Origin: a virus
Virus record (IMG/VR): IMGVR_UViG_3300023199_000261
Coordinates: 1 to 24,982 of that record
Reading direction: 5' to 3' (one strand)
Length of the DNA: 24,982 nt
Made by a program: the position numbers and the translations under genes. Below the pieces are notes generated by a model. The model searched no databases, was not told the origin of the DNA, and saw only the letters and a program-made list of their open reading frames with translations. Below are positions 4,732 to 23,581 of the stretch, one piece after another; the stretch's first letter is position 1; each line of letters starts with the position of its first letter.

Positions 4732-5076
4732 TTACAATTCTTTATATGTCACTTTAAGCTGGTTCAGTTCTTCTTCCGTGATTTCTTCCACTGAAGAGAG
4801 CCGATCGTCGGTTGCCAGCGCATTAACTAAATCCTTCGACCAGAGCGCACAGTAGGCCAGCCTGCCATCGGTCAGTGACGTCGGGCTTGCGTTGTATCCC
4901 AGCGTCATTGCCTGCCACCCGCTGCCGTCGTGCTTAACGCAGATCGTTTTGACGGGCTTGATCGGACGCTTGGGCACGTAGTAGGCTGTCGCCCCGTAGT
5001 CGCGCTCAAGGTCGGCAATGATCCCGGCCAACTCTGCCGGGAATGCAAATATCCGCTCTGTCTGGTCAAAGTGCAT
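4732..5076 (-). CDS. Hypothetical protein
   Basis: 114 residues, soluble, no recognised domain. It contains a basic/aromatic strand region (YGATAYYVPKRPIKPVKTICVKHDGSGWQ) and an acidic C-terminus (RLSSVEEITEEELNQLK). It starts inside the end of the lectin-like gene and ends 2 bases before a very small membrane-protein gene. Confidence 0.6.
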   Translation of the reverse strand: MHFDQTERIFAFPAELAGIIADLERDYGATAYYVPKRPIKPVKTICVKHDGSGWQAMTLGYNASPTSLTDGRLAYCALWSKDLVNALATDDRLSSVEEITEEELNQLKVTYKEL

Positions 5077-5824
5077 CGATTAAGTCGCTTAGGTTTACAA
5101 TGTTGCCTGTGTCCAATAGAACGCCCTCAAAAATTAAAACAGCCGATACCAATCCCTTAAATTGATCAGCCGGGTTTGTGGTCTTATTGACCTGACCAAC
5201 GCGCCATTGCCTCCCCTCCAGCGTCATGCCATCTACCGTTACGCAGAAAACGTGCTCGCCCGCTGAGTAGCTACCTGCATACGGCACCCCGTCCACATAC
5301 AATACTTTAGTGCCTGTCGAAAGAGCCGACATCCTGATGTCGGACAAGTCCGTGAAGTTTTTCAAGCTGAGCCAGAGCCCCCCGGAGTTAAAGGCTTCTG
5401 CCGCCGACAACACTACGGAATTTTGATTAGCTGTTGCTCCCCACAATGAGTTCGCCCGAGTGAACACGGTGACATCCGGGCTGGCAGGAATGTGTGCGGT
5501 GTTGCCATACTGGGTGGTTCCGGCAAAATTGATTCCCCCAGCCCCCCACGACGGGGCATTAACCAGCGTCATGTTGTTAGCCGTCAACCCGCCCAGCCCG
5601 TAAACCGTCGCGCCGCTCCCGGCGTTCTGGGTGGATTTCATGGGGTAGGCTCGAAAATTATCCCAAAGCTCTTCGGCTTTAACATACCGGGTTAGAGCAT
5701 CAAGCGCAGCCAGATCCGTAGCCCCGGAGGCCGCCGCAAACGCCAGCACATCCGCATCCAGAGACTTGCGGTTCAGGTTTTGGTTCAGTGGCCGGGTGAG
5801 CGGGTTTGTCTGGAGTCCGGTCAT
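5066..5824 (-). CDS. Tail protein with lectin-like (concanavalin-type) domain
   Basis: 252 residues. The N-terminal ~45 residues are helical and may attach to the tail (LDADVLAFAAASGATDLAALDALTRYVKAEELW). The rest looks like a beta jelly-roll: GINFAGTTQYGNT, SPDVTVFTRAN, GLWLSLKNFTDLSDIRMSA, EHVFCVTVDGMTLEGRQWRVG, LVSAVLIFEGVLLD. This order is typical of phage LamG/concanavalin-like proteins that contact surface glycans. It overlaps the next gene by 11 bases. Confidence 0.6.
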   Translation of the reverse strand: MTGLQTNPLTRPLNQNLNRKSLDADVLAFAAASGATDLAALDALTRYVKAEELWDNFRAYPMKSTQNAGSGATVYGLGGLTANNMTLVNAPSWGAGGINFAGTTQYGNTAHIPASPDVTVFTRANSLWGATANQNSVVLSAAEAFNSGGLWLSLKNFTDLSDIRMSALSTGTKVLYVDGVPYAGSYSAGEHVFCVTVDGMTLEGRQWRVGQVNKTTNPADQFKGLVSAVLIFEGVLLDTGNIVNLSDLIDAL

Positions 5825-8853: not shown

Positions 8854-8884
8854 GACCGGGGGAGCTTTCTAAACTCCCCCGGTC
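8854..8884 (-). terminator. Strong hairpin after the major capsid gene
   Basis: GACCGGGGGAG (8854-8864) and CTCCCCCGGTC (8874-8884) are perfect 11-bp inverted arms with a 9-base loop. The minus-strand sequence after it (ACAGGCCGGAAAAG) is not T-rich, so it is not a textbook intrinsic terminator. In phages such hairpins after the capsid gene often limit downstream transcription or protect the capsid mRNA 3' end. Confidence 0.6.
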
Positions 8885-10966: not shown

Positions 10967-11362
10967 CTATGGCTGATATCTGGATTCAAGGTCGTCTAAC
11001 TCAGCCGGGTCAGTTACCTTGGTCGTTTCACTGTCAGTCGGGACAGCTCCGGTTAATTCGCCGCTGATCGCCGCGGCGCGCGAAATTTCTAAAAGGTCAC
11101 ACCCCATCGCCTTGTATCCCATGGCGAAGCCGGCTGCATGCTCGGTGTTACCGTGCTGCTGCACCGCCCACGCGTTGGTGTCGGCTACGCGCTGCTCTAT
11201 TGTCAGAATCAAAAGTTTTCCGGCCCGCTTACGGAAGAATGTTCGCAGTTCACCTTCGTCTTCCTCCGTCCAATGCACCTTCTGAAAGACCGGACTCCAT
11301 CCGGTCAGTCGCCAGAGCCAGCGAAGAAAACGGATCGTATGCTGTAACTTTGACCAACTCAT
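10967..11362 (-). CDS. Hypothetical protein between portal and scaffold
   Basis: 131 residues with a strong AGGAGG 6 bases before the ATG and a 4-base overlap with the portal stop. The N-terminus is Trp/Arg-rich (RFLRWLWRLTGW). The middle is helical (WAVQQHGNTEHAAGFAMGYKAMGCDLLEISR) and the C-terminus acidic. I do not recognise it. The position suggests a virion or assembly role. Confidence 0.6.
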   Translation of the reverse strand: MSWSKLQHTIRFLRWLWRLTGWSPVFQKVHWTEEDEGELRTFFRKRAGKLLILTIEQRVADTNAWAVQQHGNTEHAAGFAMGYKAMGCDLLEISRAAAISGELTGAVPTDSETTKVTDPAELDDLESRYQP

Positions 11363-13227
11363 ACGGCCTCCTGTGGTTGCTGTTGATGCTGGCCTTGAGC
11401 TTGTGCCTGTAACGCTTCGTTGACCTGCGCGGATAGTTCCTTAATGCCTGGACCGATCTGGGCTTCAATTTCGTCGTGATCGTCCTTGTTCTCTTCCTTG
11501 AGTGCCGTCATGTGCCCTTGCAAATGGGTCAGGATTCTCACCATGGATTCCAATCCGGGCTGGGATTGCTGAGCCATGGCTTTTTCAATCCACCCCCAGA
11601 GCACTTCGATGTGTGCACGGTGCATGTCGCTGGGTTCCACTTGAACCGGATACCCCATCAGAAGCGGTCCCAGCTCCATTGCCTGGTGTTCAGATTCACT
11701 GGCGGCGCGGGAATCGGCCCGCCGAAACAACCGCTTGGCCTGTTGTGGTGCGATCGCTTCCTGGAAGAACTGTGTCAACTCTGCCTGGTCGGTGTAGGCA
11801 TTGCCTTTCAGCGTTTCAAACAAAATGCCGGCCACTGCGGCTTTGAATTCCTGATTAGCCATTTCAAAACTGCCATTCGGAACGATCAGGTATTCCGCGT
11901 GGAACGCTTCCTTATCCATTTCCTTGATCTCTTTGTGGTAAAAGTACGGACCTGCTTTATCGAATTCGCAGAGAAGCTTGTAGGCTTGCTCGTAGAGTTC
12001 TTTGAGCGCGATTGAAAGGGTTTTGCCCCGCAGTGAGGAGACTCCATCGCCCTGAGAAATGACCTGCTGCAATTCGAACTTCGTCCGGCGGTCGGAGGTG
12101 TTAATTGGCTGGCCAGACAGATAGTCGGGGCTTCCGATCATGGACTCGGCCACCAGTCGGGTCTGGTTCATCTCGACGTCATAGCTGATCGGCGGCTGGC
12201 CGTGCTCGACTCGCCGCAATCCACCGTCCACGATCTGACCTGGCAGTGCCCGGAATTTTCCCGTGGATCCAGAGGGTCGGTCAGTCGTATACATCGGGCG
12301 ATTATAATACGTCATGGCGTCTATTTTTTCGTTCCATGACTTGGTAATTGCAGACTGAAATGGAGCCAGGCGGAATACCATTCCACGCGGCGAGTAAAAA
12401 TCTTCCTCGATAATTTCAAGCGGGAATTCAACGATGGGTAACAGGCCATGTTTGTATGGGTGTCCCTGCCGGTGGAGAACGTCCTTGGGCTTGGCTGGAC
12501 AGACATACTCGATCGTCCACTTGTCTCCTGTCCGCTTCCAGCATTCCCAGACGATTACCCGGCCTTTATTCGAGTGAGTAATTCCAGCCCGGCGGTAAAG
12601 CTCATCCTCTTTATGTTTGCCGGGATTCCCGTCTTCATCTAGGTGGCCGGTGTATTGAGCGATCGTTTCCTCGCTTACCTTGCCCATCCATCGTGGGTCA
12701 TTGAGAAAGTCATCCTTCTGGAAGTGCTGGACATGGACACACCAGGGAGCCCTGGAAATTTCCTTGGTCCCTTGTGGAACAATCAGGTAGACCGGATCGA
12801 TAGTATCAAATGCCAGTTGCTTCTGGTCTTTGTCCCATCGAACCTTGAGGTAGCTTTTTCCCAACTCGCACATCTGATCGATTAAGATCAGGGCTCGTTT
12901 ACGGAGATTGCTGCAATAACGTAGTTTGTAGTCGAACCACTCGGCGGCGGTGGCCGCTTTTTCTTCGCGGTCCTTCCGCCATGATGTGAAGCTGGCCAGC
13001 TTGTTTGGCGCGAAAATCTGGTCGTATAGATACGGCTTTTGCTTCTCTATTACCGTGTCCGCAAGAGGATAGTGCATATCGGCTGCATTCGGAAATGGCT
13101 TATTAGCTCGGGGCAAACCCGTCCGGCGCATCTTAGCCAGAGTAGCCTGCCTGACCTCCCAGCTTTTACGAAGACGCAGTGCCTCCATCGCGCTGTCGTA
13201 AACCTGACTTTTGGTTTGCCCGTCCAT
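11359..13227 (-). CDS. Portal protein (head-tail connector)
   Basis: 622 residues. Position in the operon (after terminase, before scaffold and capsid), size and content all fit a podovirus portal. The N-terminal part reads RANKPFPNAADMHYPLADTVIEKQKPYLYDQIF, then KSYLKVRWD, FDTIDPVYLIVP, YSPRGMVFRLAPFQSAITKSWNEKIDAM and SPDYLSGQPINTSDRRTKFELQQV, as in the collar/portal families of N4-gp56-capsid phages. The C-terminus is Gln-rich and helical. It forms the ring through which DNA enters and leaves. It starts 2 bases after the o-spanin stop and ends in an ATGA overlap with the next gene. Confidence 0.8.
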   Translation of the reverse strand: MDGQTKSQVYDSAMEALRLRKSWEVRQATLAKMRRTGLPRANKPFPNAADMHYPLADTVIEKQKPYLYDQIFAPNKLASFTSWRKDREEKAATAAEWFDYKLRYCSNLRKRALILIDQMCELGKSYLKVRWDKDQKQLAFDTIDPVYLIVPQGTKEISRAPWCVHVQHFQKDDFLNDPRWMGKVSEETIAQYTGHLDEDGNPGKHKEDELYRRAGITHSNKGRVIVWECWKRTGDKWTIEYVCPAKPKDVLHRQGHPYKHGLLPIVEFPLEIIEEDFYSPRGMVFRLAPFQSAITKSWNEKIDAMTYYNRPMYTTDRPSGSTGKFRALPGQIVDGGLRRVEHGQPPISYDVEMNQTRLVAESMIGSPDYLSGQPINTSDRRTKFELQQVISQGDGVSSLRGKTLSIALKELYEQAYKLLCEFDKAGPYFYHKEIKEMDKEAFHAEYLIVPNGSFEMANQEFKAAVAGILFETLKGNAYTDQAELTQFFQEAIAPQQAKRLFRRADSRAASESEHQAMELGPLLMGYPVQVEPSDMHRAHIEVLWGWIEKAMAQQSQPGLESMVRILTHLQGHMTALKEENKDDHDEIEAQIGPGIKELSAQVNEALQAQAQGQHQQQPQEAV

Positions 13228-13855: not shown

Positions 13856-13930
13856 TTGCGGGGACGGGATTCGAACCCGTGACCTCCTGGTAATGAGCCA
13901 GGCGCGCTAACCAGCCTGCGCCACCCCACG
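13856..13930 (-). tRNA. tRNA with anticodon CAU, initiator-like (C1-A72)
   Basis: A full cloverleaf can be drawn. Acceptor: positions 2-7 pair with 66-71 (one T-G pair), while position 1 is C facing A at 72. D stem is GCGC/GCGC with a GG-containing loop. Anticodon stem is CCTGG/CCAGG with loop CTCATTA, giving CAU. The variable loop is AGGTC. T stem is ACGGG/CCCGT with loop TTCGAAT. CCA is not encoded. The unpaired C1-A72 is the hallmark of bacterial initiator tRNA. However, only two of the three anticodon-stem G-C pairs are present, and pair 11-24 is C-G, the elongator type. So it is initiator-like but mixed. It lies in the late operon just upstream of the holin. Confidence 0.9.
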
Positions 13931-16526: not shown

Positions 16527-18845
16527 TTAAAAATATTCCCGGGCTTCCCGGCATTGCGGCTCTACCGCATCATAATAAACATCCCGCCAGGCCTGCCGCT
16601 CACGCACCCCATAGATCACCCGTATTGTTGAGTCACCCTGCCGCCGGTGTTTCTTACGTTCCTTCCAGTCCGGCTTGTATTTGAAGACCCCGCGCATGAG
16701 GTGGGCGTTGTCTTTGAAATACTGGTGAACGCTTTCAAAGTCGCACCAATCGGCGTAGGCGCTGAAGATATCGTCCGCCTTAACCCATTCATCGGCTTCC
16801 CCGTCTTCCATCACAGCTTCAAGGAAAGTAGGTAGCGAGTTGACGTGCAGGGCCATATTTGCGTCCAATTTCTGCCCTGCTTGCGTCCGTGAAAAATGCC
16901 CCCGCTCAGCCAGCCGCCGGAATCCCTCCATTGCCCAGGCAAATATCCCCTCCCGTTCTCCTAGGAAATCCAAATGCTTGGACGTTTTCACCGCGCCAGC
17001 CGGAACGGTGACTTCAAACGGAACCTGGATAAACCGCCTCCAGAATCCCCGCGAGCCGTCTGGAGTTTTAAGAAAAACGTTGCTGGTGCCGACGATCTTG
17101 CCTTGAGGACGGTAGGCAAAGACCTGCCGGTTCTTTGGGTTGATCTGAATTTCCTCGCCCGCCGCAATTGATTTGATCAGGTCCAGGTGGTCGAAAGAAT
17201 TAGAAGCCAGCTCCCCTGCGTCGTAGAGGAGCCTCCCCACCAAACATTCACGGGCATGGCCGTCCTTGAGGTCATGCAGCGGCAGGGCTGTGCAGTTCTC
17301 CGGGCCTAGAAGCATCCGGGCCACTTCCACAAAGGTGGATTTACCCGTCCCTCCTTCGCCAAAAAACACAAAAAAGGCGTGAAAGGGGTTCCCGGGCACG
17401 CATAAATAGCCCAAAATTTCCTGTAATTGCTTGCGTATCTCCTCATCTGGCTGACGTTCCTCCAGCCAGGCCAGCCACTGAGGGCATCCGGCATCCGGAT
17501 GATACTCCACCGGAAGCTGGTTATTGGAAAAATAGTCCATCCGGTGGCCGGTGACCCTGCCCGTCCGGGTGTTGAGCATTCCGTTGCGGACATTGATCAC
17601 CTCGGAATCGTGATCGTTCCAGACCACCGAAGCCATTCCCCGGGCGGATTCGACCGCCATGACCTTTACGACAGATGCGTAGAATCGATCGCTGACCGCC
17701 TCCCGGAGAAGACCGACCTGCTTCGCGGCATCCGCCACGTATTCTCGGGCGGCTTCCATGTCGACGCCGTGCCAGACTCCGTTGACGTAACGCCAGAAAC
17801 GCTGCTGTGCATACCGGAGTTGCTTTTCCCGGACCAGAATTTCAGCCAGAGAGAGCTGATCCACCTTCACACCTCCAGACTTGCCCAGGCGCACACAGGA
17901 GCCATACAGTGCCCAGCCGGGCAGGCTGGCCTCCTCCGCCCAGTCCAAAATCGTCTGCTTCCAGTCCTCGGAGTGATCTCCCGCCTTTGCCTGCTCTTGA
18001 ATCCAGTCAGAAATGTCCGCCTTGGGAGGACATTCCGGCCACTTGGTTTTTAGGTCGACCATCCCCAGGCTCCGCACCCGGCCATATAATTTACGTGCCA
18101 GTATCCCGACCCGCTTGACTCCCGCTGCATCATTATCAAAAAGGATGATCACATCACGGTTGGCCAGCACTTCGGTAAATTTCGATTCCCACTTGCTTGC
18201 CCCGCCTGCGTTCGTTGTCGCCAGAATGCCAATCTCTTCCAGACTTTCGACGTCCTTTTCGCCCTCGACAAGGAAAACCGGCTGATCCAAATCCGCCCGG
18301 CGTAGTTCCGGCTGTCGATACAACACCTGATCTGTTCCCTCCAGGGACCATATCCACCAGCGGCCGTCACTGTCTCTGCGCGCCTTTACCGGCTTTCCTG
18401 TCGCGCCTTTAATCTCCTCGCCCTCCCGGGCCGGTCGGCGTTGGCGGAAGTCCTTAGGCTCCATCCGCACCGTCTGGTGACGTAGCACCCCGTCGTCGTC
18501 CAAATAGTCATAAGTTCGGACAATCTTGCTGCGCGGTGCGCTTTCTGGCCGCGCCTCATTTTTGACACCGGCCAATTCCTTGTAATGCCGGATTGCATCT
18601 TTCTGATCACGACCATCGATCTGCTCGATAAACGTGATCTCATCGCCACCGAGCCCGCTGCTGAAACACTTGAACTTCCAGAATTCCCCTTTCCGGAAAA
18701 CGTGGAAGCTCGCCGTTTTTTCCTTCTGGAAGGGACAAACGATAAAAAAATCCTCGGAATTTCGAGGAGTGGAAAACCCGTATTTTTCTAACAGGTCCGG
18801 CAGCGGCAGCCTCCGCTTGCATTCTCTGATCTGATCACGTGACAT
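16527..18845 (-). CDS. Primase-helicase: CHC2-like zinc finger (degenerate), Toprim, D5/SF3-type ATPase
   Basis: 772 residues from ATG 18845, which overlaps the recombinase stop; the frame is open upstream but that region codes for the recombinase. Residues ~10-75 are a CHC2-type primase finger, yet only Cys37 (VCPFQKEKTASF) and Cys60 (FKCFSSG) remain: the usual His after CPF is Gln40 and the last Cys is Ser. Toprim motifs follow: FLVEGEKD (Glu194) and ILFDNDAAG (Asp237/239). The C-terminal half has a D5_N-like region and Walker A GEGGTGKST (496-504) with a GTSNVF segment downstream, as in phage/plasmid D5-type helicases. It would prime and unwind DNA at the phage fork. Two hairpins follow the stop. 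Confidence 0.85.
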   Translation of the reverse strand: MSRDQIRECKRRLPLPDLLEKYGFSTPRNSEDFFIVCPFQKEKTASFHVFRKGEFWKFKCFSSGLGGDEITFIEQIDGRDQKDAIRHYKELAGVKNEARPESAPRSKIVRTYDYLDDDGVLRHQTVRMEPKDFRQRRPAREGEEIKGATGKPVKARRDSDGRWWIWSLEGTDQVLYRQPELRRADLDQPVFLVEGEKDVESLEEIGILATTNAGGASKWESKFTEVLANRDVIILFDNDAAGVKRVGILARKLYGRVRSLGMVDLKTKWPECPPKADISDWIQEQAKAGDHSEDWKQTILDWAEEASLPGWALYGSCVRLGKSGGVKVDQLSLAEILVREKQLRYAQQRFWRYVNGVWHGVDMEAAREYVADAAKQVGLLREAVSDRFYASVVKVMAVESARGMASVVWNDHDSEVINVRNGMLNTRTGRVTGHRMDYFSNNQLPVEYHPDAGCPQWLAWLEERQPDEEIRKQLQEILGYLCVPGNPFHAFFVFFGEGGTGKSTFVEVARMLLGPENCTALPLHDLKDGHARECLVGRLLYDAGELASNSFDHLDLIKSIAAGEEIQINPKNRQVFAYRPQGKIVGTSNVFLKTPDGSRGFWRRFIQVPFEVTVPAGAVKTSKHLDFLGEREGIFAWAMEGFRRLAERGHFSRTQAGQKLDANMALHVNSLPTFLEAVMEDGEADEWVKADDIFSAYADWCDFESVHQYFKDNAHLMRGVFKYKPDWKERKKHRRQGDSTIRVIYGVRERQAWRDVYYDAVEPQCREAREYF

Positions 18846-19483
18846 TAATAGGCTACCTCCAGATACTGCCGGGCTTGTGCCTCCGGCACCTTTTTGTTGA
18901 AAAGCGGAACCACGTTTCCAGGTTTGGGCAGTCGATCCGCCGGGCTGACCACCTTTCCAGCCAGATCCGGAACACAATGCAGATAGATAGCAGTAGTGCG
19001 GTCTTTCCCGCCCTTGCCATGTCGAACCACTAGCATCTTGCGCTCGAAGTCGAGGTCTTTAACCCGGAGATGCACTACCTCTTTAAGTCGCAGTCCGGAG
19101 CCATAGGCGAGTTCTGCCATGATCCGGGTAGGCCCTGCCATCGCATCCAGAAGTCGGGCCGCCTCATGCTGATTGAGCCATTCAGGGATCCGCTTTCTGG
19201 TCTTGGCATACTGCCACTTTTTCAGATCGCCGAGCGGTTCCCCCAGAACCTCCTTGAACATGAATACAAGGGCACACAGAGCCCCCCGTTGAAGAGAAGC
19301 GGATTGATTTGCCTTCCTGGAGAGAAAAGTTGTCACCTTGTCTTCCCGTGAGAGGTCCGGATGCTTCAAAGAAAAGTCATAAAACTGTCCTGCGATCGGG
19401 GCATATTTGGTCCATGTGCGCTTGGAATAGTTCAAATCCCGGCACCGCTGAATCACCCGTTTCTGTAGCTGCTGTTTAGTCAC
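18845..19483 (-). CDS. Truncated tyrosine recombinase, integron-integrase/XerC-like
   Basis: 212 residues from GTG 19483. Residues ~15-95 form the N-terminal SAM-like core-binding domain. The catalytic domain begins normally: AYGSGLRLKEVVHLRVKDLDFE contains the box I arginine (Arg132) and RHGKGGKDR the beta-hairpin lysine. It then stops. The HxxR box and the tyrosine nucleophile region are absent, although relatives are about 310-340 residues. The wording around YGSGLRLxE..xLRVKDxDFE and a final VPEAQARQY resembles integron integrases (which read LPdALArKYP at that point). It is probably inactive as a recombinase. The TAA overlaps the primase ATG (TAATG), so the remnant is kept in frame within the operon. 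Confidence 0.75.
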   Translation of the reverse strand: MTKQQLQKRVIQRCRDLNYSKRTWTKYAPIAGQFYDFSLKHPDLSREDKVTTFLSRKANQSASLQRGALCALVFMFKEVLGEPLGDLKKWQYAKTRKRIPEWLNQHEAARLLDAMAGPTRIMAELAYGSGLRLKEVVHLRVKDLDFERKMLVVRHGKGGKDRTTAIYLHCVPDLAGKVVSPADRLPKPGNVVPLFNKKVPEAQARQYLEVAY

Positions 19484-19525
19484 TTTCCGCTTTTCCCTAT
19501 ATATACGGAAACTCAGTCCGTAGAT

Positions 19526-19768
19526 TCATTGTTCCGGGCGACTTCGTCGCCCGGAATGCGGCCCGGTGAGCGCCGCATTAGAAATATACTGGACTAAAGA
19601 CTTTGCTATGAGTCTTCTGTCATCAGCGGACACCGCCTCATGGATTTGCGACATAGCAACGGCGTGTAAAACTACGCGCCCGTTTATTCGCATCTGCCAC
19701 GCTTCCATAGGGGCTGATCCATCTTCTGGGATTAGCCTTTCCCTCTGCCATGCTACTTCTAGTTTCAT
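19526..19768 (-). CDS. Hypothetical protein ending in tandem hairpins
   Basis: 80 residues with a weak ribosome site (GTTAGAAATTT before the ATG). It starts MKLEVAWQRERLIPEDG and has no recognised domain. The last ~17 codons (from NAALTG to RPEQ) are encoded by two adjacent perfect hairpins at 19532-19579. It lies 42 bases upstream of the recombinase start, the usual position of a cassette next to an integron integrase, though in the opposite orientation to most cassette genes. Confidence 0.5.
   Translation of the reverse strand: MKLEVAWQRERLIPEDGSAPMEAWQMRINGRVVLHAVAMSQIHEAVSADDRRLIAKSLVQYISNAALTGPHSGRRSRPEQ
19532..19579. repeat. Two tandem perfect hairpins beside the recombinase gene
   Basis: Hairpin 1: TTCCGGGCGAC (19532-19542) pairs with GTCGCCCGGAA (19546-19556) around TTC, 11 bp. 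Hairpin 2: AATGCGGC (19555-19562) pairs with GCCGCATT (19572-19579), 8 bp with a 9-base loop. The two share AA. Neither is followed by a T-run on the minus strand. The right flank reads CATTAGAAA, near the GTTRRRY box of integron sites but not a match. Both lie inside the 3' end of a coding sequence. Confidence 0.7.
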
Positions 19769-19780
19769 AAATATAAATTT

Positions 19781-19836
19781 CTAACAAGACCGTTCATCCA
19801 ACGCGCTTTCAGCGCGTGGCTGACGGGCAACGTTCG
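19781..19836 (+). repeat. attC-like imperfect palindrome
   Basis: Read on the plus strand it starts CTAACAAGACCGTTCATCC, close in form to the R''-L'' side of known integron attC sites (CTAACAA..CGTTCAA). It folds as follows. CTAAC pairs with CGTTCG-side GTTCG (4 of 5 bp). A short unpaired spacer follows. CCGT/CA pairs with TG/ACGG with one extra T on the left. CC pairs with GG. One extra A is bulged on the left. Finally a perfect 7-bp stem ACGCGCT/AGCGCGT encloses a TTC loop. Two bulged bases on one arm and an unpaired spacer inside the outer box are attC hallmarks. The right box GTTCGCT deviates from GTTRRRY. The assignment is inference. Confidence 0.45.
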
Positions 19837-20089
19837 CTTCAAATAATGTGAACTCACACTTTCCGTCAGACATCGCCTTGCGGATCGCTTCAACCGATTC
19901 AAATTGAATTACTAATGCCATATTTACCGCGCAGACAGTTTCCATATCTTCAGGATCATTAATTGTGTGTATATCCCCCGCCTCGACGACATTACCACGC
20001 GCCAGCGATTCAGTCGCTACATCCAACGGCTTACCTGCCTCGGTTTTCTCTGACGGGTTGCCCGTCGCTTTCTCATTTGGTTTTCCCAT
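19781..20089 (-). CDS. Hypothetical acidic protein whose 3' end overlaps an attC-like palindrome
   Basis: 102 residues with GGAG 6 bases before the ATG. The first ~35 residues are low-complexity, polar and lysine/glutamate-rich. A more globular part follows (VCAVNMALVIQFESVEAIRKAMSDGKCEF). The last ~18 residues (from ANVARQ to ERSC) are encoded by the attC-like palindrome at 19781-19836, as often happens when a reading frame runs into an integron recombination site. No family recognised. Confidence 0.55.
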   Translation of the reverse strand: MGKPNEKATGNPSEKTEAGKPLDVATESLARGNVVEAGDIHTINDPEDMETVCAVNMALVIQFESVEAIRKAMSDGKCEFTLFEANVARQPRAESALDERSC

Positions 20090-20104
20090 AGTTTTCTCCA
20101 GTTG

Positions 20105-20122
20105 GCTCAGCCGTGGCTGAGC
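20105..20122. repeat. Perfect hairpin at the end of a small gene
   Basis: GCTCAGC (20105-20111) pairs with GCTGAGC (20116-20122) around a 4-base loop. It overlaps the TGA stop of the gene on the minus strand. No T-run follows on the minus strand, so it is not an ordinary intrinsic terminator. The right flank continues as TTGTTCGC, and GTTCGC also flanks the palindrome at 19781-19836. Confidence 0.7.
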
Positions 20123-20322
20123 TTGTTCGCAGGAATATATTCTAATCGAGTCGTGACAAAAGCATGCATGAGCCCTCGGACGGACTCTAGGTCGGCAGCC
20201 AGCCGCTCCGTTTCTTTTCTGGCCTCGACTAAAACATTAGCGCATTCGCTAAGCAGTTGGGCTCCCATCCGGCCTCTGGTGTGCGGTGCCAGTCCGTTCA
20301 GGTATCGGTTTGATCTCTTCAA
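20107..20322 (-). CDS. Small hypothetical helical protein with hairpin at its 3' end
   Basis: Up to 71 residues from a TTG at 20322. An ATG at 20268 with AGAGG 4 bases upstream is an equally good start and would give 53 residues. The middle (LLSECANVLVEARKETERLAADLESVRGLM) is amphipathic and probably helical or coiled-coil. The reading frame is continuous with the preceding gene apart from one TGA (20347-20349). Its last codons and stop lie in a perfect 7-bp hairpin (20105-20122). No family recognised. Confidence 0.45.
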   Translation of the reverse strand: MKRSNRYLNGLAPHTRGRMGAQLLSECANVLVEARKETERLAADLESVRGLMHAFVTTRLEYIPANKLSHG

Positions 20323-20670: not shown

Positions 20671-21043
20671 GGCTTTCCTTACCAGTAAATAATCTGCCCG
20701 TAGAAAGGTAGCCCGTGAGTTGACTTGAAAAAAAGATGAAATCTTCCAATGACGCAAAGCCATCCGCTTCTGCCAGTTCTTCGACTTCCCACTTAGGAAT
20801 AGGAGCACCATCCAGGTGGCATACCACTCCCCATCTGAATGACGGGCTAATAGAGAAATTATACACCTCTACGCACGGAGTCGGCTCTATCAGGCGGCGA
20901 CACGCTTTTGTCCTCATGCCGGTATACAGGTAGAGCATATCTCCCTTTTTAATCGGCCTCTTCCGTAGCGCGCGGATCGTTTGACGTTTAAGCCGTGCCT
21001 CGACTTTGGGCGCAAACTGCTTCTGAAAATTCAATGCCGGCAT
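20660..21043 (-). CDS. ASCH-like phage protein
   Basis: 127 residues from ATG 21043, chosen because AAGGAG sits 5 bases upstream; an upstream GTG at 21058 lacks this. The N-terminal pattern LNFQKQFAPKVEARLKRQTIR, then KKGDMLYLYTGMRTKACRRL, is that of small phage ASCH-domain proteins (PUA-related fold, presumed RNA or modified-base binding). The gene overlaps the end of the DUF5672-like gene by 13 bases. Its own end overlaps the next start by 11. Confidence 0.6.
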   Translation of the reverse strand: MPALNFQKQFAPKVEARLKRQTIRALRKRPIKKGDMLYLYTGMRTKACRRLIEPTPCVEVYNFSISPSFRWGVVCHLDGAPIPKWEVEELAEADGFASLEDFIFFSSQLTGYLSTGRLFTGKESHVH

Positions 21044-21576
21044 ACGCGCTCCTTCCACCCCGGTAAGGTTTTGTGAAATCCAAATGAATTCTTCCGGGTC
21101 CGCTCATGCTTACACCAGAACACATCCCCACTCATTCCCTCGGGATATTCCAGCGTATTGAGAACCCGAATAAATGCAGCACTTCGCAGACAACACCCGC
21201 CATTTCCCACCCGGATACCATTGCGGCCAGACCATTTAAGCGGCCACGGCGCGCCGATATAGTCCCATTTCAAAAAGTCATGTTCCCAGCATTCCGGGTG
21301 CACCGGAAAGCCGTCCGGCTCGATCGAAAGCTGGTGGGATTGCCCCGGTCCCAAGAGCCACCCCATGTCCACCGCCTGGTAACGCATGGCATCCTCATAG
21401 TCCAGCGGCACACAATGCACCCATCGGACCCCATCTATCCCCGCATCAACCGGGCTGATATGCACCCATTCGGAAAACGTGAACCGTTTTTTAAGCCAGC
21501 GGAGAATATTCCCCGCATGGCTACAGCCCTGACCGTCCAGGAACACAAGCTGAACTGTTGGCAAATGAACCGTCAT
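21031..21576 (-). CDS. DUF5672-like putative glycosyltransferase
   Basis: 181 residues. The core reads IEPDGFPVHPECWEHDFLKW, then DYIGAPWP, then RVGNGGCCLRSAAFI, and later GDVFWCKHER. This order matches the DUF5672 family as I know it, which is found in glycan clusters and thought to be glycosyltransferase-like. The ATG overlaps the upstream stop by 4 bases, making the third coupled gene of the glycan block. No membrane segment is seen. The exact sugar chemistry is unknown. Confidence 0.7.
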   Translation of the reverse strand: MTVHLPTVQLVFLDGQGCSHAGNILRWLKKRFTFSEWVHISPVDAGIDGVRWVHCVPLDYEDAMRYQAVDMGWLLGPGQSHQLSIEPDGFPVHPECWEHDFLKWDYIGAPWPLKWSGRNGIRVGNGGCCLRSAAFIRVLNTLEYPEGMSGDVFWCKHERTRKNSFGFHKTLPGWKERVCRH

Positions 21577-22478
21577 CTTGCTAGTTCCTCCATGTATTCG
21601 TCCCTCAATTCGTTAAGCGGTAGCGGTTTCATTCTGGACCACGCATAACGGCCAAACTTAGCCACAGTATCCCAGCCACGTGACACCCGACCGCTAACAG
21701 ATTCAAGCAGACTGATATCCCGGAAATCATCACCCCCAGCCGCCGCTATTGCCCCGTGGAGCCTTCCACTGACAATCCGCTTAAACTTCATAATAGTCTG
21801 TAAAAGACACCGATAATCTGTGCTGTGCATAGCCACCGTATTACTGTGATGAATAGCCCACATCCGGCGTTCATAGGCATTGTGCAAAACTACCGGACAG
21901 TTGCTTTTTTCTGCCAGGGCGATGGCCTGATTAAAAAGCCTCTCAACATCGCTGGCGATGACCACCTGATCGTGCATCGGCGCACGTTGTGCAATGAGCA
22001 TAGACCGGGCCGCAAAAAGTGCCGGGCAGGGCAGAACCCGGGCATTATTACTCAGAGCATTGCAAAAGCCCATCGCCAGTTCATCCCGGCAGATCACCGC
22101 CTTTGCTGCCTTGATCGTATCCAGAACCAGAGGCGTCTGGTGGTCATTCAGGTGCGCCTCGCTCTCTGCACCAATGCCAATTAAATAAACCGGTGTCCCG
22201 TGAATCTGAGCCTGCTGGTAGACCGGCTCATTGGATCGAAGCCAGTCCGGAGTCCCGGCCACTACCAGAGCATCAAAGTGCCACGGATCACCGGGCACCC
22301 AGGTATTGGCTCGTGCGTTGGCGCCGCCTGAATCAGACCGGCTGATCAAGTGGTTACGATTATAAAACATTAACTGCCTAATCTGCCAACCCGCATGCTC
22401 CAGCAGATAAAGAACCCCCTCCCGGATAAAATCATCGCCGGGGTTCCAGCACGTGGTAGTTGATACCAGAACATTCAC
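21573..22478 (-). CDS. Polysaccharide pyruvyl transferase-like protein (PF04230-like)
   Basis: 301 residues, GTG start overlapping the upstream TGA (GTGA). The N-terminus (VSTTTCWNPGDDFIREGVLYLL) matches the N-GDD-I start of the pyruvyl-transferase family. A glycine-rich VAGTPDW segment follows, and near residue 237 comes the family hallmark SGRLHGAIAAA. Members add pyruvate ketals to sugars in exopolysaccharide or cell-wall glycans, but many are only fold relatives. Its place between a GT9 gene and a DUF5672-like gene supports a role in building or decorating a glycan. The TGA overlaps the next ATG. Confidence 0.75.
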   Translation of the reverse strand: MNVLVSTTTCWNPGDDFIREGVLYLLEHAGWQIRQLMFYNRNHLISRSDSGGANARANTWVPGDPWHFDALVVAGTPDWLRSNEPVYQQAQIHGTPVYLIGIGAESEAHLNDHQTPLVLDTIKAAKAVICRDELAMGFCNALSNNARVLPCPALFAARSMLIAQRAPMHDQVVIASDVERLFNQAIALAEKSNCPVVLHNAYERRMWAIHHSNTVAMHSTDYRCLLQTIMKFKRIVSGRLHGAIAAAGGDDFRDISLLESVSGRVSRGWDTVAKFGRYAWSRMKPLPLNELRDEYMEELAR

Positions 22479-23581
22479 GCTGCTACCTCCGTCGGCGTAT
22501 TTTCTTCCATCAGTTTCCAGACCTTTGCCGTTACCCGCTTGGGATCAATCATGTCCAGAGCCACGCAACGGTGTGCTTCCGCACCGGGACAGTTTTCCGG
22601 CATCATTTGACCCCGCCGGGAGTGATGGAGACAAGGAGCGCAAGGCAGGTTACCGGACAGAGCTACCATCCGCGGCCCCGGCGTCACCCGTAGCTTCCAG
22701 GGAAACGATCCGTAGAGAGCCACGCAAGGCACATCCAATGCCGCCGCCGCATGAGTAATACTCGAGTCAGGAGCTACCACCACGTCACAAGCGCGTAAGA
22801 CCGCGCATGCCTGCCTGAACGTCGGAGCCGGTTTCAGCGTGTGCAAGTTGATAATTTTTCCCGTGCTGCATTTGACAGGTGGTTGCCCCGGGGCGGCGAA
22901 GATAACAACCTCTCCACCCCGAGCATGCACGTCCGCAATGACTTCGATAAGCCGTGCATACGAACGCACAGGAGAAGAGGCATACAACTGAATACCCACC
23001 ACTGGCCGCTTTTTCCCGTTCGGTAGAATTTTCTCAGCCAAGGCCAATTCTGAATCATCCAAATAGATATCCATCTTCCGGCTGCAAATTCCCGGCTTTA
23101 ACCCGAAACAGTCCGCAAAGACATCCACCGCATGGTGCGTTTTAGCCAGTGGCCCCCATTCGATCGCATTTTCCAGCGTCACAATCGCATCAGCCGTGCC
23201 CCACACATGGGAGGGAACCGGATACGTAACCAGTTCATCAATGTGCGGATTGCCGTGCAGAACCGGGGATACCCGGTCAGAACAAGCCACCTGCAGTATG
23301 ATTCCCGGCCAGCGGCTTCTCAGTTCCCTGAAAATCGGTGTGCAGAAAAGCAGATCCCCAAACCCGCCGGGCCGCACGACGAGAACAGTAGAATCATTCC
23401 AGTCATCATCCGGATCAAAGGCGAAGCCCATGGAATTCAGATCGATAGCTTTTAACTGCGCCTCACGGGAAAAGGACGTCAGATATTCTCCCGCATTAAC
23501 CGATTCCATTAAATATTCCTGCTCAGGCTGGAATATTTTTCCATGTAGCGACACCTCTTCTGTAAAAGTGACCGTGTGCAT
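22475..23581 (-). CDS. Glycosyltransferase family 9 (heptosyltransferase-like)
   Basis: 368 residues. After an unusual N-terminal extension of about 60 residues comes a Rossmann start typical of GT9 (VVRPGGFGDLLFCTPIFREL), and near residue 275 the donor-site block APDSSITHAAAALDVPCVAL followed by GSFPWKLRVTPG. GT9 enzymes transfer ADP-heptose or related sugars to LPS core or other glycans. GAGG lies 7 bases before the ATG, and the gene starts 3 bases after the endolysin stop. It ends in a GTGA overlap with the pyruvyl-transferase-like gene, so the two are translationally coupled. A Cys/His-rich stretch (CAPCLHHSRRGQ...C...C) near the C-terminus is also seen in some environmental GT9 proteins. 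Acceptor unknown: host LPS, virion glycan or modified DNA are all possible. Confidence 0.85.
   Translation of the reverse strand: MHTVTFTEEVSLHGKIFQPEQEYLMESVNAGEYLTSFSREAQLKAIDLNSMGFAFDPDDDWNDSTVLVVRPGGFGDLLFCTPIFRELRSRWPGIILQVACSDRVSPVLHGNPHIDELVTYPVPSHVWGTADAIVTLENAIEWGPLAKTHHAVDVFADCFGLKPGICSRKMDIYLDDSELALAEKILPNGKKRPVVGIQLYASSPVRSYARLIEVIADVHARGGEVVIFAAPGQPPVKCSTGKIINLHTLKPAPTFRQACAVLRACDVVVAPDSSITHAAAALDVPCVALYGSFPWKLRVTPGPRMVALSGNLPCAPCLHHSRRGQMMPENCPGAEAHRCVALDMIDPKRVTAKVWKLMEENTPTEVAA

Follow-up and report, generated by a model that had tools for sequence, protein, structure and literature searches.

A probably decaying, internally deleted integron-integrase-like recombinase beside the primase gene of a tailed phage

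We analysed a virus record from IMG/VR, 24,982 bases long and referred to throughout as the window, which comes from an uncultivated source as a single contig. It encodes a major head protein, the large and small terminase subunits, a primase and an endolysin, and these mark it as a tailed phage. Rfam scans returned a tRNA as the sole match in the window, and nothing in the region described below exceeded a gathering score. The nearest matches of the terminase large subunit gene (terL) are Akkermansia phages, and terL matches occur in 12 of 388 genomes from the phylum of a Verrucomicrobia MAG; as to the host, these matches are suggestive only. The recombinase, with matches in 117 of the same 388 genomes, gives no help in placing the gene. 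Elsewhere on the minus strand, an adjacent trio of genes (21031-23581) encodes a DUF5672 protein, a polysaccharide pyruvyl transferase and a family 9 glycosyltransferase, the third of which has a relative on the viral contig L103.

The region of interest reads, in gene order on the minus strand, as three small open reading frames (ORFs), a recombinase gene and the primase/helicase gene (Table 1). Recombinase and primase lie on the same strand and overlap, with a GGAGG inside the recombinase gene. A preliminary description of this locus had seen in it the layout of an integron, with recombination sites pointing away from the integrase; instead, the recombinase is co-directional with the primase, runs into its start and is not divergent from any array. 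Homologues of the 80- and 102-residue ORFs were sought, and none was found.

Table 1 Features of the recombinase region and its phage setting
Feature	Coordinates	Strand	Remarks
Portal-like gene	11359-13227		Name rests on position and on tblastn hits next to terL in related contigs
tRNA-Met (CAT) gene	13856-13930	-	Just downstream of the terminase large subunit gene
Primase/helicase gene	16527-18845	-	Start (ATG) overlaps the stop of the recombinase gene (TAATG)
IntI-family tyrosine recombinase gene with in-frame internal deletion	18845-19483	-	212 aa, GTG start
Tyr167 codon	18983-18985	-	Aligns with the catalytic tyrosine of relatives; invariant alignment column
Deletion junction	18997-18998	-	Arg162 codon (KGGKDR) joined to Thr163 (TTAIYLHC); ~131 codons missing relative to intact relatives
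Small ORF, 80 aa	19526-19768	-	Weak coding signal, without clear ribosome-binding site
Perfect 11-bp hairpin, loop of 3	19532-19556		Stem length beyond chance
Second hairpin, 8-bp stem	19555-19579		Adjoins the first
Small ORF, 102 aa	19781-20089	-	Good ribosome-binding site (GGAG)
Imperfect palindrome, not an attC	19781-19836		attC model -1.1 bits on plus strand, -2.0 on minus strand
7-bp hairpin	20105-20122		Within chance expectation
Small ORF, 71 aa	20107-20322	-	No significant family match

Judged by profile and structure matches, the recombinase gene is of integron-integrase (IntI) ancestry. Its best NCBIfam match is the integron integrase model TIGR02249, at 121 bits over model positions 5-165 of 315; with half of the model covered, this falls short of the curated cut-off of 265 bits. 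The XerD and XerC models give 39-49 bits, so that the window copy, although it shares the tyrosine recombinase superfamily with these enzymes, scores far higher with IntI models. An N-terminal SAM-like domain (PF13495) is present, and PF00589 matches at 48.8 bits (gathering score 27.1) over profile positions 2-71 of 172 only. The integron integrase 2a3v comes first both in Foldseek, for the predicted structure, and in a profile search against PDB sequences. Because full-length members beside the window copy pass the cut-off (332-354 bits against 265 for L019, L016, L030 and L043), this branch of recombinases on viral contigs is IntI by the TIGR02249 definition. The likeness to integron integrases that had been proposed for 18845-19483 is therefore borne out, by the best family match, by the full-length relatives of its clade and by the closest known structure.

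The gene lies where it was first described, but the central catalytic segment, whose absence had been overlooked, is missing. The window copy reads KGGKDR followed directly by TTAIYLHCVPDLAGKVVSPADRLPKPGNVVPLF; its relative L019 reads KGDKDRVT, then ~130 residues, then ETTQVYLHCVPRFAESITSPLDVLPLPGNVVSF. The spacing from Lys to Tyr is accordingly 7 residues in the window copy, compared with 138 in five relatives. The loss is in frame and amounts to ~131 codons (393 bp), among them the HxxR box, the second His/Trp box and the IntI-specific insert, which relatives carry between the Lys strand and HxxR (LPDGLERK...REWPWFWLWPA). Arg132 (Arg-I), Lys residues and Tyr167 are kept, leaving the R-K-H-R-H/W-Y set incomplete. 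With the His-Arg-His/Trp part of its active site lost, the 212-residue protein is, we infer, probably unable to cleave DNA, and so catalytically dead. Alignment with full-length enzymes had first suggested a simple 3′ truncation; this was abandoned when the C-terminal tail aligned with the ends of the relatives, the same tail (YLHC...SP.D.LP...NVV) being found in the window copy and in full-length proteins from viral contigs. The missing segment was not found elsewhere in the record.

Only the N-terminal, DNA-binding part of the protein is modelled with high confidence: in an AlphaFold2 model, the core-binding domain (residues 1-90) has block means of pLDDT 93-98, the catalytic remnant lies at about 67-84 and the tail falls below 50. 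The retained part deviates at 3 of 31 broadly conserved positions, and intact relatives deviate at 0-4. With the frame open and the conserved positions mostly kept, decay is unproven, and a maintained short protein is possible. A search of other contigs for the KGGKDR/TTAIYLHC junction found none, and the deletion is thus known from one contig.

The imperfect palindrome at 19781-19836 had been taken for a site with attC architecture. It is present, with the sequence as quoted, inside the 3′ end of the 102-residue ORF, whose stop codon occupies 19781-19783, but it is not an attC site. Visual inspection shows a single fair R''-like box (TTCTAAC, 6 of 7 positions), a left arm with one extra base and a mismatch in one L-box pair. 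Between the outer boxes, TTCTAAC and GTTCGCT, 4 of 7 positions can pair, as read from the sequence, compared with 5-7 of 7 in attC sites collected from control integrons by a scan that itself demanded at least five. Its core stem is unremarkable: perfect stems of 7 bp number 21 in the window, the palindrome's own included, against 7-18 in dinucleotide shuffles. As a whole, though, the 71-nt element has a more stable fold than its shuffles (z -2.6 to -3.2).

A covariance model also speaks against an attC site in this element. Built here from 12 genuine attC sites, with helix covariation counted, the model recovers ~100 sites at 22-62 bits in control integrons, its own building sites among them. 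Run over the window with filters off, it reaches at best 7.3 bits (E 4.6), with nothing above chance, and no attC was found by this check, one of a kind that the preliminary description had itself proposed. The model covers few attC types. In a mixed set of 80 bacterial IntI loci it finds attC at E <=0.01 near 17; many of the 80 are short contigs or possibly cassette-free, which bears on that rate. Because so few types are modelled and 17 of the 80 bacterial loci scored, the negative result is more secure for the palindrome itself than for the absence of attC sites from all close relatives.

The further hairpins reported at 19532-19579 and 20105-20122 both exist, and the one at 19532-19556 is indeed without R boxes or other integron features. 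Perfect stems of 11 bp occur twice in the window and in none of eight shuffles, and these are the longest perfect hairpins present; the other, at 8854-8884, adjoins the major head protein gene. A role of 19532-19556 as a conserved recombination site was considered and rejected, as 19 relatives show nothing equivalent immediately upstream of their recombinase genes.

Relatives of the recombinase were recovered from viral contigs with an alignment as query; this was required, as the integrase, primase and major capsid protein (MCP) used as single-protein queries gave no confirmed match. The profile search yielded 420 viral contigs with a tblastn-confirmed IntI-like recombinase match, and most of the best 80 of these, kept for inspection, have no significant attC match. 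In a maximum-likelihood tree the window copy falls in a group of 23 (SH-aLRT 92) nested in a group of 39 (90). XerC and XerD form a separate outgroup. As the window copy sits on a long branch, its precise position is uncertain. Significant attC matches are absent from all other rows of the group of 23, and weak matches in the group of 39 are confined to L072, L059 and L051; IntI1, IntI3 and several viral-contig loci with clear attC arrays sit in another group (97).

Nearest to the window copy, in the tree and in sequence (about 40-48% identity), are full-length recombinases such as those of L019, L016, L030 and L043, which carry all catalytic boxes, whereas the window copy is internally deleted. 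Several viral-contig relatives adjoin genes for DnaB, SSB, primase-like or terminase-like proteins, and several overlap the next ATG. In L019, primase-like genes lie directly downstream of the recombinase, as in the window. On the related phage contig L102, which has terL, portal and head protein in common with the window, the gene upstream of terL encodes an IntI-family recombinase of full length.

Inspection of these contigs yielded further observations. IntI-family genes without a significant attC match are found on L012-L033, L042-L044, L046, L049, L050, L056, L062, L063, L066, L082 and L085, and several of these share a conserved neighbourhood of DnaB, SSB, a 206-residue protein and a terminase-like protein of 661 residues. 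Genuine-looking attC sites or arrays, on the strand opposite to an IntI-like integrase, accompany the gene on L045, L054, L067, L073, L083 and L088, with weaker ones on L072, L074/L077, L075 and L086; these viral contigs (L073, L045 and others) may be phage-borne integrons or host DNA. A second recombinase-like gene lies near the IntI-like gene at L016:6999-8420, L017:6016-7689, L025:5657-6868 and L044:7752-9035 (all minus strand) and at L036:6688-7881 (plus strand), the only one with a PF00589 match. The idea that a second tyrosine recombinase is the true integrase of these relatives was set aside, as Pfam support is confined to L036 and the others resemble such enzymes by eye. On L032 (5001-5800), the recombinase ORF, an open frame of 267 residues, stops early in comparison with the near-identical L030, the match continuing over 5001-5633 only, in what looks like a frameshift.

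The explanation that we favour, and consider likely, is that the window carries a decayed deletion derivative of a phage-borne IntI recombinase beside a primase gene, and no integron. The region would then be the start of a phage primase operon. The ancestor would have been a working phage recombinase, serving either integration and excision or the resolution of replication products. The present copy would be a decaying deletion derivative with DNA binding at most. The protein retains its DNA-contacting core-binding domain, part of the catalytic domain and the tail that bears the Tyr. Two causes could have kept the frame open: a recent origin of the in-frame deletion, or a benefit of read-through to translation of the overlapping primase gene. 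The hairpins would be ordinary secondary structures or regulatory elements rather than sites of integron recombination.

A first alternative is that the short form is maintained, as a catalytically dead IntI derivative that is translated before the primase and acts as a DNA-binding regulator or competitor of recombination or replication. The open frame, the intact core-binding domain of the AlphaFold2 model, the largely retained conserved positions and the overlap with the primase start would all fit such a protein. However, a recent in-frame deletion accounts for the same facts, and a junction present on no other contig gives no sign of conservation, so that we think this unlikely. A broader proposal, to which we give similarly little credence, is that the attC-free IntI branch found in replication and packaging operons of tailed phages serves the phage, and that here it has been pared down to a dead DNA-binding regulator or competitor coupled to the primase. 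Equally doubtful is that the deletion is an assembly artefact and that the phage has an intact IntI-family recombinase. The record is a single contig of uncultivated origin, its retained ends are collinear with intact relatives, and in those relatives short similar motifs lie near both break points (ACC near KDR and TT); against this, no long repeat links the break points in the relatives and the loss is exactly in frame. The least probable reading is the original one, a remnant integron with IntI, small cassettes and one surviving attC at 19781-19836: the IntI ancestry, the R''-like box with its extra left-arm base and the existence of phage integrons (PMC9892861) speak for it, but the palindrome scores far below the control sites, with outer boxes short of pairing, the window has no second site, the recombinase is gutted of its active site and co-directional with the primase, and its nearest relatives in the tree are without significant attC matches.

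Comparison with known systems is consistent with the reading of a deletion derivative outside an integron. With the TIGR02249 integrases, exemplified by VchIntIA/IntI4 (PDB 2a3v), the window copy has in common the N-terminal core-binding domain and the first part of the catalytic domain, but it differs from them in having neither the ~131 central residues nor attC sites nor an array. Integron parts in phages are already known: in a survey of 10,705 phage genomes, Qi et al. 2023 described 3 complete integrons, one In0 and 17 CALINs, and ran attC x attI recombination assays on some of these elements (PMC9892861). Like those integrons, In0 and CALINs, our locus has an IntI-type gene in a phage genome; the published elements have an intact IntI and/or attC sites, and the locus described here has neither.

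Two cautions follow from this locus: an attC site that convinces by eye can score as noise, and the label of integron integrase may rest on half a protein. Mildly new is the recurrence of IntI recombinases without attC sites on viral contigs, and the IntI-like recombinases encoded on 420 viral contigs bear on the question of whether IntI-family enzymes have a role in phages beyond integrons.
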